A stretch of 64,000 nt of DNA from Alphaproteobacteria bacterium (GTDB lineage Bacteria > Pseudomonadota > Alphaproteobacteria > Sphingomonadales > JAKSBY01), in NCBI GenBank assembly GCA_021774625.1, contig JAJFIV010000015.1:1-64000 (forward strand), given 5' to 3'. Below, in pieces: positions 30,856-36,246 of this stretch (the stretch's first letter is position 1; each line of letters begins with the position of its first letter). Made by a program: the position numbers and the translations under genes. The notes beneath the pieces were generated by a model that saw only the letters and a list, made by a program, of their open reading frames with translations, was not told where the DNA came from and did no database searches.

Positions 30856-31536
30856 ATGATCCCGACACCGCTCCCCAAAAACTTTATTTTCGATCTCGAC
30901 GGCACGTTAGTGGATTCGGCGCCGGACCTCGCCCATGCCCTCAACCATGTCCTGAAACGCCTGGGCAAGCCCGCGGTTCCGCTTCAAGATGTGCGGCATT
31001 TGACAGGCCATGGGGCGCGCCCCCTGATCGAACGGGGTCTTGCCCTCAACAGCCTGCCTTCCAGGGAAGCCGACATTGACCGTGAATTGAGGCATTTTCT
31101 GGACTATTATGCGGCCAATATCGCCGTGGACACCCGGCCTTATCCCGGCGCAGTGGAACTGCTGAAATTGCTGAAGACCCGTGAGATTAAAATCGGTCTC
31201 TGCACCAATAAGTCGGAACGGCTCAGCCGGTTGCTCCTGAAGGCCCTTGATCTTACGGACTATTTCGACGCGATTGTCGGCGGCGACACGCTGCCAGTCA
31301 GAAAACCGGACGCCGGTCATGTTTTGGGCACCATCGACGCCCTTGGCGGCAGGGCCGATGAAACGCTTTATTTCGGGGACACCCGGACAGACTTTGATGC
31401 CTGCAAAGGGGCCTGTGTTCCCATTATTCTTGTTAGTTTCGGCTATAGCCGCTTACCTGTCCAGCAATTGGACGCCTACGCTTTTGCTGACTCATACCAT
31501 GAAATCATTCATTCGCTGCGCGCGGCGCCAGCCTGA
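30856..31536 (+). CDS. gph: Phosphoglycolate phosphatase (HAD superfamily)
   Basis: A 226-residue HAD hydrolase with motif I FDLDGTLVDSAPDLAHALN (nucleophile Asp), the cap domain, motif II CTNKSERLS, motif III RKPDAGH and motif IV YFGDTRTDFDA. This matches Gph, which dephosphorylates 2-phosphoglycolate made by DNA repair and photorespiration-like reactions; related HADs could be confused with it. It is divergent from glmU. The 3' end overlaps the convergent nucleotidyltransferase gene by 32 bp. Confidence 0.85.
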   Translation: MIPTPLPKNFIFDLDGTLVDSAPDLAHALNHVLKRLGKPAVPLQDVRHLTGHGARPLIERGLALNSLPSREADIDRELRHFLDYYAANIAVDTRPYPGAVELLKLLKTREIKIGLCTNKSERLSRLLLKALDLTDYFDAIVGGDTLPVRKPDAGHVLGTIDALGGRADETLYFGDTRTDFDACKGACVPIILVSFGYSRLPVQQLDAYAFADSYHEIIHSLRAAPA

Positions 31537-32599
31537 CTTCCTTTTTACCCTCTTTCATATTGCGGATTGCCTTTGCAGTCAGATGTCGCATCAGCATAAA
31601 AGGCGGCATTTTCAGCCAGTGGGAACGGATATAAAGCAGAAAGCGGGCAATGGCGGCTCTGGTTTTCCGGACTTCGGGAGCCGCGGGCAAAATGGCGTGA
31701 CGGACAAGTCGGGGGATAAAATTCCGGTCCGTCTTCGGTTTGATGGCCCCATCCCCCAGAAGCTTTTGCAGCAAATTCAGCGCGAGATCGAGCGGGCCTT
31801 CCAATCCATGCAGCTTTGCCCGCGCTATCAGGCGGACCGGGAAATCGCTCCTTTCTGAAAATTCCGCAATCAAGGCCTGAATATCAAGCAAATCCCGCAG
31901 CCGGCCGGCAAAATCGCTGTCATACACCAGATGAAGCACCGCATGCAGCACCATGTCCTCGGGGCACAGCATGCGGGTCCCCGCTTCATCCGGAATTGGT
32001 ATCGAATCGGCAATCAGGCGTTCCGCATCCGGCGTCAGGCGGCTGGTGACCGGCAGAATGGTGTGATGGACATCGATGATTGCATGGCGGTTTTCATGGC
32101 GCAGTGGCGGCAGTTCATGCATCCATTCCCGATAATAATGGTCGTCATAATCGTTGGCGCCGACTGATTTCCATCCTGCCGCTTTCAAACGGGCCTCCAC
32201 ATCCGGCAGGTCCGCCTTCGCCAGCAATATATCAAGATCGGTCGAAAGCCGTCCCCGGCCATTTTTCAGGCCGCTGAGGACATAAGCGCCACCCTTCAGA
32301 AGAATCGGCTGATGCGCGGTGCCGAATAACGCGCGGCGCACCCGGTTGGTTTCCCAGCGCAGCATGCGGACATTTTCCGCAAACAGGACATCCGCATCGC
32401 GGAAAGCCATCTGCACCGGCATAGGCAGCCGGCCCAAAAGCCCGGTATCTTTCGCGGCAAGGGAAAGCCTTGGCAACAACATGGCGCTGCGGGACCGGCG
32501 CAGCAATTCCGTCCATTGCCGCGCCGGAAGATTTTCCATCACTGCCGGGTCCGTCAAAGCCCTGACCAGAAGATCGGATGACAGCCGCCCCCCGGTCAT
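31505..32599 (-). CDS. Nucleotidyltransferase-family protein of the HPr-rel-A cassette
   Basis: The 364-residue protein looks like the uncharacterised nucleotidyltransferase family (NTP_transf_5 type) found near HprK-related and exosortase genes. A candidate nucleotidyltransferase site is GGAYVLSGLKNGRGRLSTDLDILLAKADL, with the pattern STDLDIL (about residues 117-123), and DVHHTILP further on. The rest is helical with no TM helices. It is the last gene of a four-gene minus operon: its start overlaps the HprK-related stop by 4 bp. Target unknown; it could nucleotidylate a small metabolite or a partner protein. Confidence 0.72.
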   Translation of the reverse strand: MTGGRLSSDLLVRALTDPAVMENLPARQWTELLRRSRSAMLLPRLSLAAKDTGLLGRLPMPVQMAFRDADVLFAENVRMLRWETNRVRRALFGTAHQPILLKGGAYVLSGLKNGRGRLSTDLDILLAKADLPDVEARLKAAGWKSVGANDYDDHYYREWMHELPPLRHENRHAIIDVHHTILPVTSRLTPDAERLIADSIPIPDEAGTRMLCPEDMVLHAVLHLVYDSDFAGRLRDLLDIQALIAEFSERSDFPVRLIARAKLHGLEGPLDLALNLLQKLLGDGAIKPKTDRNFIPRLVRHAILPAAPEVRKTRAAIARFLLYIRSHWLKMPPFMLMRHLTAKAIRNMKEGKKEVRLAPRAANE

Positions 32600-33510
32600 G
32601 CCGCCACATCCTCAACCAGTTGAATGGCCGTTTTCAAATCCGGATAATGGATATTATAGACCCCGCATTGATCAATCAGTTTTGACAGGGCATCGAAGGA
32701 TGTTTCGCCGAACCGGTCATAATTGACCGACGACATGGTCATCACCAGAAAAGCTTCCGCCAGCTTTAACGGGTAAGCCTCCGCTTCCGAATCCGGCTGA
32801 TAATTGGGGAAAATGATGGCTGCAGGCTGAGCCCGTTCCCCTACCCGCGACATCATTTCCCGGGCGGGGCGGATATAGGCCACGGTCCCTTTGGGCGTAT
32901 CGGTCAGAGAGTTACTGATTTCCGCCTCCGGAAAATGATCCCGGATCACACTGATCGACTGATTTTTAAGCGACAGCGGCCGCGGATAGGGAATCAGCGA
33001 CAGATCGTCAAAATCAATCATCGCGAATTCATCGGAAAAATAGCGCCAGCCGGAATGAATCAGCCCGGCGCAGAGCGTGCTTTTGCCCTGGCCTGACATG
33101 CCGGGAATGATGACCGCCCGGCCATTTTTCTCGACAACAGCCGCATGGAAAATCAAATAGCGCAATGTCCGCGATGCGACCGCCCAGTTGAGGCCCATTT
33201 CAAACATCAGCTGGGCATGCGCTTCCGCCATGGGAACAAAAGGCGTCGGAAAATCAATATCGGCGATGGCCTGCCGCCTGAACCAGCGGCGCATCCCGCC
33301 GCTCCCGCTCATCTGGATCGTAAAATCGGCAATCCGGCTGTCATCGACAACCGGATAATGCGCATAAAGATTTTGAAAGGAACGGGCGAAAGGCGGGATT
33401 GGGCTTTGCAGGCGGGTGACAAAAGGGCCGGTCTCGAAATAAAGCCCGCCGCGCGCCATGCGGCAGCGCAAATCCTGCTCCTGCAGTTCTCCGACTGTTA
33501 AATCCGGCAT
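32596..33510 (-). CDS. HprK-related kinase A
   Basis: A 304-residue protein whose centre has the HPr-kinase-type P-loop VIIPGMSGQGKSTLCAGLIHSGWRYFSDEFAMID. The Walker A is GMSGQGKST and SDE corresponds to the SDD of HprK. The LIPYPRPLSLKN stretch is typical of the HprK-related A family. Unlike HprK there is no obvious phosphorylase C-loop, and no HPr gene is nearby, so the substrate is not HPr. It overlaps the PqqD-like gene by 13 bp and the nucleotidyltransferase gene by 4 bp, giving one translation unit. Family known mostly from exosortase-containing genomes. Confidence 0.8.
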   Translation of the reverse strand: MPDLTVGELQEQDLRCRMARGGLYFETGPFVTRLQSPIPPFARSFQNLYAHYPVVDDSRIADFTIQMSGSGGMRRWFRRQAIADIDFPTPFVPMAEAHAQLMFEMGLNWAVASRTLRYLIFHAAVVEKNGRAVIIPGMSGQGKSTLCAGLIHSGWRYFSDEFAMIDFDDLSLIPYPRPLSLKNQSISVIRDHFPEAEISNSLTDTPKGTVAYIRPAREMMSRVGERAQPAAIIFPNYQPDSEAEAYPLKLAEAFLVMTMSSVNYDRFGETSFDALSKLIDQCGVYNIHYPDLKTAIQLVEDVAA

Positions 33511-33803
33511 GGCTCGATCAAGCCCAATTCATCGAACTGCTTGATGAGCCCGCTCACCTGCCCGGCCAGATTTTCGTCAAGCGGAATATCCAGATAATCG
33601 GCAATATTCCTTGCCAGTTGATCCGTCGTGACCGCTTCCTTTTCCAGATGTTCGAGCGCAACCATAGAAAACAGGTTTAGGTAGTGGGTCTGGCCCGAGT
33701 CAAGATCAATGACGACGGACGCCTCATCCCAGCGCCGCCACTTTAACGGTTTACCGGCAGGAATGCGCCACGTGACACCGCCATCAAGATTCGATAAATC
33801 CAT
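33498..33803 (-). CDS. PqqD-like peptide chaperone of the HPr-rel-A system
   Basis: A 101-residue protein of PqqD type (RiPP recognition element fold): VVIDLDSGQTHYLNLFSMVALEHLEKEAVTTDQLARNIADYL, with the winged-helix pattern GLIKQFDELGLIEP at the end. PqqD-like proteins bind the leader or core of a precursor peptide and present it to modifying enzymes. I prefer the ATG 33803 (MDLSNLDGG) over a TTG at 33818. It lies 21 bp after the Tat protein gene and overlaps the kinase gene. Its neighbour gene encodes the best candidate ligand. Confidence 0.75.
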   Translation of the reverse strand: MDLSNLDGGVTWRIPAGKPLKWRRWDEASVVIDLDSGQTHYLNLFSMVALEHLEKEAVTTDQLARNIADYLDIPLDENLAGQVSGLIKQFDELGLIEPCRI

Positions 33804-33824
33804 GCCTGTGAGGCCCAAAGGAGT

Positions 33825-34199
33825 TTAGGCGCGGTAGCTTTGTTTCAATGAAGACCAGCAGGAATAGGCATGATATTTGAGATAAATATGATGCGCTTCA
33901 GAGCCGTTATATTCTTCGCTGTTAAAATAGCGGATCAGATATTTTGACTGGTATTTGCTCTTACCGGACTGCCGCAGGAGTTTGTACAGATCGTGATAAT
34001 TATACCTGTCAACCATCGGGAATTCCTGCTTTTCCGCGCAGGTCAATGACTGTGCCCACGCCGTGCCCGACTGGAGTGTGATGACAACCGGCACAACAGC
34101 CGCGCCGGCTTTCAAAAACCGCCGTCTTGCCGAGCGGGTTTCGCCTTCGGTGACCTTAGCGCCGGAATTTTGCTGTTCCATCTGATTCTCACTGCTCAT
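33825..34199 (-). CDS. Small Tat-signal, tyrosine-rich protein; candidate client of the HprK/PqqD cassette
   Basis: A 124-residue protein with an N-terminal Tat signal ARRRFLKAGAAVVPVVITL and a likely signal cleavage after TAWA (residue 49). The mature 75 residues contain 11 tyrosines (for example DRYNYHDLYKLL, IYLKYHAYSCW) and two cysteines near each end (SLTC; YSCW). No known family comes to mind. The gene opens the four-gene minus operon and is 21 bp from the PqqD-like gene. SD GGAGG precedes ATG 34199. Role as a modified or chaperoned peptide is an inference from position and composition. Confidence 0.6.
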   Translation of the reverse strand: MSSENQMEQQNSGAKVTEGETRSARRRFLKAGAAVVPVVITLQSGTAWAQSLTCAEKQEFPMVDRYNYHDLYKLLRQSGKSKYQSKYLIRYFNSEEYNGSEAHHIYLKYHAYSCWSSLKQSYRA

Positions 34200-34458
34200 T
34201 ACGGATCGCCTCCAACTGCACAGCCATTAAAATAATCATATCGCTGCGCACCATGCAATATCTGCGCCAAGACCGATAAATTCATATATTTCAGCACTTT
34301 ATAAAATATTACATAAAAGAGACATGATAAAGTGTAAAATATACCGACACCCTTGGCCAGCTTTGAACCATCTATACACCAAATTCGCCCAAGGGTAAAC
34401 TGACAAGGCCAATATGGTTAACTGACGAGCGGCGGCCAGGACGGGAATTAGACACTTT

Positions 34459-36104: not shown

Positions 36105-36122
36105 CTGTCATAAGACTGTAAC
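36105..36122 (+). promoter_or_regulatory. Pho box upstream of pstS
   Basis: CTGTCATAAGACTGTAAC (36105-36122) has two 7-bp CTGTMAY-like repeats 11 bp apart, close to the classical PhoB box. It is 125 bp upstream of the pstS GTG. Binding is inferred. Confidence 0.75.
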
Positions 36123-36246
36123 AATAGTTTCATAAACCCATCACATGAAACAGATACGCCTTGAATTGCAGCGAGCGGCGCATGCCCGGCGACCGCAAAA
36201 AAGAACCGCGAAACGGGCAGATATGAACTATTTCGGAGACATTGAC

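Follow-up and report, generated by a model that had tools for sequence, protein, structure and literature searches.

A small Tat-signal protein is a conserved partner and probable substrate of a PqqD/HprK-A/nucleotidyltransferase cassette in Proteobacteria

We describe a cassette of four genes on the minus strand of a 64,000-nucleotide stretch of alphaproteobacterial DNA (the window; positions 1 to 64,000 of contig JAJFIV010000015.1, assembly GCA_021774625.1, Sphingomonadales), which encode, in order of transcription, a small protein with a twin-arginine translocation (Tat) signal, a PqqD-like adaptor, an HprK-like kinase and a nucleotidyltransferase. Comparison of genomes shows the small Tat-signal protein, hereafter the client, to be an obligate partner of the three enzymes, PqqD, HprK-A and nucleotidyltransferase. 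With a probability of roughly two in three, we further propose that the locus is one dedicated protein-tagging system together with its substrate, in which the client would be bound by the PqqD-like protein, phosphorylated on Ser117, acted on by the transferase and exported by Tat. The set probably places a phosphate-based tag on the client before export, since it is almost always accompanied by a client with the same Cys-Ser ending, and the analogy with lasso peptide and linear polyphosphorylated peptide (LPP) systems points to Ser117 as the probable acceptor and to the transferase for a probable second step.

The association between client and kinase was evaluated in samples of 199 genomes of the order, 337 of the class and 398 across the phylum. 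HprK-related kinase A (HprK-A) was above its cut-off in 89 of the 199 genomes of the order. With a profile built from 21 alphaproteobacterial Tat proteins encoded upstream of the cassette (A1) and client hits accepted up to an E-value of 1e-5 (four genomes lacking HprK-A gave weaker hits, at 1e-5 to 0.01, which we regarded as noise), 86 genomes had both proteins, three the kinase only, none the client only and 110 neither (Fisher p = 1.6e-53, ancestry ignored). Inspection revealed that the three kinase-only genomes (G023, G061 and G035) each encode a similarly built client, undetected by the profile, and a client was likewise found in two genomes near the cut-off (G006 and G094). In the class sample, HprK-A was detected in seven genomes outside the order, and a Tat-signal open reading frame (ORF) adjoins each, that of G205 being a weak, short hit. 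Across the phylum HprK-A was present in 61 of the 398 genomes. A Tat-signal protein adjoins it in 27 of the 30 loci read, and a second client profile, of the beta/gamma type and aligned separately from A1 (A5), gave hits in 38 genomes, all of them within those 61. No client adjoins the cassette at L213, L214 and L220 (genomes G588, G599 and G547, draft assemblies), where the client is found on another contig. The small Tat gene is thus kept in other copies of the cassette, its absence from them being the refuting condition given with the original prediction from the window alone.

Some genomes retain both client and enzymes in separate places. In G034, G121, G169 and G080, client and cassette share a contig and are hundreds of kilobases apart, and in G098 and G053 the client is on a different contig from the kinase; in G053, the client and PqqD-like genes are beside a phoR-like gene and the kinase and transferase genes are on another contig. 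At L170-L172 the client also remains beside the phoR-like gene, with the enzymes elsewhere. Because client and enzymes lie apart yet both are kept in several genomes, linkage alone does not explain their co-occurrence. Five of the six split genomes share one genus, so that perhaps no more than two separate splits occurred within the order. Extra clients ending in GVSC/GISC-x-x-SI were also observed far from the cassette (L175, 4303-4923; L176, 4404-5000; L177, 4593-5195), each with similar kinds of neighbour genes within a few kb.

The client of the window (33825..34199, minus strand) is a protein of 124 amino acids that matches no curated family in the libraries searched and had no match in a sequence search of the PDB; a public Sphingomonas record labels its client "hypothetical protein". 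The residues invariant in A1 are, in window numbering, R25, R26, L29, G32, S51, C54, C114 and S117. Cys114 and Ser117 belong to the motif S113-C114-W115-S116-S117-L118 (33846..33863, minus strand; C-terminus SCWSSL-KQSYRA), of which Ser117 is the proposed modification site. Of 78 non-redundant clients, 73 have a C-x-x-S sequence past the signal, where shuffled sequences would give 10.8; the set was collected with a motif-containing profile and is therefore biased toward the motif. Its context in this set is G-phi-[ST]-C-phi-x-S-phi, and the Ser is followed by a median of 7 residues. Beta- and gammaproteobacterial clients, which come with a conserved signal and the same cassette, end in [ST]-C-W-x-S-[FLI], the C, W and S being invariant in A5, whose members were chosen partly by this ending. 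The [ST]-C-x-x-S motif hence spans alpha- to gammaproteobacteria, with C and S invariant in both A1 and A5.

The same alignments bear on whether another residue or another chemistry could be involved, that is, whether the modified residue of the same client is Ser51, a Tyr, a Cys or the Ser/Thr next to the Cys, or whether the transferase, rather than adding a sugar, transfers a nucleotide to the protein (AMPylation). In 72 of the 73 clients Cys114 is preceded by S or T, the Ser51 position is invariant in A1 and nearly invariant as Ser in A5, and the transferase has a weak match, below the cut-off, to PF08843 (AbiEii nucleotidyltransferase; E 5e-4), all of which would suit such a scheme. However, the known HprK-like peptide kinases of this kind target one Ser, and replacing the target of LppK (S3T or S3Y) abolished its action, so we regard this alternative as unlikely, if far from negligible. 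Modification of a Tyr, in addition, does not fit the conservation pattern. The original prediction had drawn attention to the 11 Tyr and two Cys in the 75 mature residues, a count that we reproduced for the residues past the AWA site, and had described the candidate client as tyrosine-rich. This feature is peculiar to the window copy: a relative from the same family (G007) has one Tyr in its mature part, Tyr is not conserved among clients, and the idea of a Tyr-rich client was dropped.

The Tat signal of the client, RRRFLKAGAAVVPVVITLQSGTAWA (34053..34127, minus strand), has a visible twin-arginine n-region, hydrophobic stretch and AxA site, and scores under the curated cut-offs of the Tat models (13.3 versus 16.7 for TIGR01409, and also below that of PF10518). 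A signal-only profile built from beta/gamma clients gave 35.9 bits for the window signal and 3.2 bits for the highest-scoring of the other candidate signals in that genome, the background being 25 signal-like stretches from 18 other Tat-profile loci, some of which are not true Tat signals. When A1 and A5 were compared with hhalign, they aligned with a probability of 97.3 over 38 columns, which cover the signal and the first Cys only. These comparisons indicate that the client signal is conserved across classes beyond what is seen in ordinary Tat signals. The middle region of the client is variable in length and sequence. The mature part of a Sphingobium client was confidently predicted as a folded domain, with no solved structure matched, and the model of the window client was too poor for use (mean predicted local distance difference test score, pLDDT, of 56).

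Both the adaptor (33498..33818, minus strand; TIGR04353 PqqD_rel_X, 43.5 bits, cut-off 35) and the kinase (32596..33510, minus strand; TIGR04352 HprK_rel_A, 324.5 bits, cut-off 200) belong to the HPr-rel-A system of NCBIfam, whose models, as seen here, name no client or function; the adaptor corresponds to the HPr-rel-A system PqqD family peptide chaperone. The nucleotidyltransferase (31505..32599, minus strand) belongs to NTP_transf_5 (PF14907, 154.5 bits, cut-off 31.2). HprK-A has H122, K143 of Walker A, D160 and E161 without exception in 168 loci, and the transferase likewise has K102, G103, D121, D123 and D176 in all of 149 loci; as aligned, both enzymes keep their catalytic residues. The H-K-D-E set of HprK-A corresponds to H-K-D-D in the lasso kinases and in the HPr kinase of the same genome, Glu taking the place of the last Asp. 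No PqqD-HprK fusions were found among 80 named loci, and a sequence search of the PDB returned nothing for the transferase and, for the kinase, no more than weak matches to the P-loop of HPr kinases. A plasmid of Vibrio alfacsensis, pVa1, was also seen to carry genes for an HprK-related kinase A and a nucleotidyltransferase, with a gene of about 270 codons for a hypothetical protein ahead of them (L251, 6028-9095).

The sequence relation of HprK-A to HPr kinase could suggest that the enzyme regulates the phosphotransferase system by phosphorylating HPr, its neighbours being incidental. This is very hard to sustain and HPr was rejected as the target, since the genome has a separate pair of ordinary HPr and short HPr kinase genes on another contig (C29), and HprK-A scores 19.3 bits against TIGR00679 (HPr kinase/phosphorylase), where the cut-off is 240, so that it is not a member of that family. 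The distribution of HprK-A, moreover, tracks that of the Tat client. As the original prediction had observed, neither an HPr gene nor a radical SAM gene adjoins the cassette. The SynChlorMet cassette has a PqqD-like protein and radical SAM enzymes and, like the window, an HprK-related protein (ScmC, TIGR04249, against which HprK-A scores 32.7 bits, far under the cut-off of 125); no radical SAM gene of its type lies near the cassette of the window.

The closest parallels are found in peptide modification. In lasso peptide pathways, the kinases PadeK and ThcoK phosphorylate the C-terminal Ser, and in that of pseudomycoidin the kinase PsmK and the nucleotidyltransferase PsmN give a phosphorylated and hexosylated Ser (reviewed in PMC9266682 and PMC8498205). 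The clusters for paeninodin and pseudomycoidin share with our cassette a PqqD-like B1 protein and an HprK-like kinase, with a nucleotidyltransferase in the case of pseudomycoidin and a C-terminal target Ser, whereas the cassette is without a B2 peptidase or macrolactam synthetase and its client is larger and bears a Tat signal. In Bacillota, the linear polyphosphorylated peptides described by Popov et al. (2026; PMC13381572) involve an adaptor (RRE), an HprK-like kinase (LppK) that places several phosphates on one Ser, and a nucleoside triphosphate (NTP) transferase (LppN), together with a linear client of 35-200 amino acids. LPP clusters, which are often beside capsule genes, were described as restricted to Bacillota (PMC13381572). 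They resemble the window cassette in their RRE adaptor, HprK-like kinase, NTP transferase, small client and lack of a macrocyclase. They also have a YxxP leader, a SipW-like signal peptidase (SpI) and an MsbA-like exporter, whereas YxxP does not occur in the N-terminus of the window client, nor do SpI peptidase and MsbA-like exporter genes in the cassette; the HPr-rel-A client differs in its Tat signal, its near-C-terminal [ST]-C-x-x-S, the folded domain predicted in Sphingobium and its occurrence in Proteobacteria. In the literature searched, no paper mentions the HPr-rel-A system or connects PF14907 with lasso peptides, and PsmN and LppN are likened to the transferase by description, as a nucleotidyltransferase and an NTP transferase. 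The suggestion in the original prediction of a possible undescribed system holds in part: its enzymes already have names in NCBIfam and the same trio acts in lasso and LPP pathways, while the client, the motif and the Tat route are absent from the family libraries and literature searched. A lasso-type locus was noticed in the same order (L192, 3273-7429), with a 58-amino acid precursor ending in Ser and asparagine-synthetase-like, HprK-like kinase, sulfotransferase-like and PqqD-like genes.

The best reading of these data is a Tat-exported, folded-protein variant of lasso/LPP chemistry, the modification itself being deduced by analogy. The PqqD-like protein would bind the client, probably through the conserved Tat signal, and present it to HprK-A, which would add one or more phosphates to the invariant Ser of [ST]-C-x-x-S (Ser117 in the window); the PF14907 enzyme would then attach a sugar or nucleotide to that phosphate. 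Tat exports folded proteins. The tagged, folded client would leave by this route, be cleaved after AxA and function at the cell surface or in the periplasm, perhaps together with exopolysaccharide. Modification before export fits with cassette enzymes that have no visible export signal, with the transport of folded proteins by Tat and with the invariant near-C-terminal Ser that the client keeps. That the Tat protein is a substrate modified before export, as originally predicted, is in line with its role as a conserved partner of the cassette.

Several observations weigh against this interpretation. The conservation of Ser117 and the Cys residues could reflect folding; the co-occurrence counts ignore shared ancestry, and most copies are linked; and the lasso/LPP leader motif [YW]xxP is absent from the window client. 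The second step is weakened by the inactivity of LppN in the published test (PMC13381572). Some HprK-A loci outside the order (L085, L086, L129, L161, L197, L198 and L212) have Tat proteins of another type, without the C-terminal motif, and the profile finds no PqqD-like gene near L085, L086, L129 and L159, with an unmatched ORF of 90 amino acids at the expected place of that gene in L085.

A second type of Tat protein was recognized beside HprK-A in L085 (7084-7710), L086 (7096-7662), L197, L198 and L212. Proteins of this type contain GRTPGFWQN or GYSPGWW-like motifs and lack the C-x-x-S at the C-terminus. A trypsin-like protease gene is present in some of these loci (L085 and L086) and also in L129.

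With respect to function, exopolysaccharide or exosortase-type loci harbour several of the beta/gamma copies, and in some Sphingobium copies a GT4 glycosyltransferase gene separates the client gene from the PqqD-like gene. These neighbours, along with the location of LPP clusters by capsule genes, make a role of the system in surface polysaccharide a reasonable guess, and no more than that. They could also indicate that the target of the enzymes is another molecule, for instance an exopolysaccharide or a glycolipid, and that the Tat protein is a carrier, sensor or effector partner and not the substrate. We consider this improbable, as PqqD-like adaptors and HprK-type kinases are protein-directed families and such a target would leave the invariant Ser motif of the client unexplained.

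The layout given in the original prediction, four minus-strand genes with a 21-bp gap or overlaps, and a first product of 124 residues, agreed with our reading of the locus. The PqqD-like gene, ending at 33498, may start at an ATG (33803, 21 nt past the stop of the Tat gene) or at a TTG (33818); the HprK-like gene overlaps it by 13 nt and is itself overlapped by the nucleotidyltransferase gene by 4 nt. On the client side the cassette is flanked by a phoR-like kinase gene (from 34459, plus strand) and pstS, and on the transferase side by a HAD phosphatase gene (30856-31536, plus strand), glmU and glmS. The order phoR-like gene, client, PqqD, HprK-A, transferase and HAD phosphatase is constant from Kordiimonas to Sphingomonas, with glmU and glmS coming next in Sphingomonas as in the window. 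In the divergent region between the client and phoR-like genes, a direct repeat, GTCAGTTWACC, is present at 34394-34404 and 34416-34426 (minus strand, copies 22 bp apart), which is a possible regulator site. Control of the client by the Pho regulon, considered in view of the divergent phoR-like gene, was discarded, as no Pho box lies between the two genes. The one good match, CTGTCATAAGACTGTAA (36105-36121, plus strand, 1 mismatch), is located just 5' of the pstS-like gene at 36145.

On these grounds, an orphan kinase system gains a concrete predicted substrate family and a candidate modified residue, and the named but uncharacterised HPr-rel-A system becomes directly testable in ordinary Sphingomonas or Sphingobium strains. 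A broader and more tentative view, which we put forward with some reserve, is that of a widespread proteobacterial branch of RRE/HprK/NTP-transferase systems, in which the Tat signal may serve as the adaptor leader and a folded protein may be tagged before export, on a Ser near its C-terminus, with a group that is linked through phosphate and is perhaps a phosphosugar, giving an unrecognised class of tagged envelope proteins. If true, phosphate modification of the lasso/LPP type would extend from peptides of Bacillota to Tat-exported proteins across Proteobacteria, and this raises the possibility of an export signal that doubles as a modification leader.

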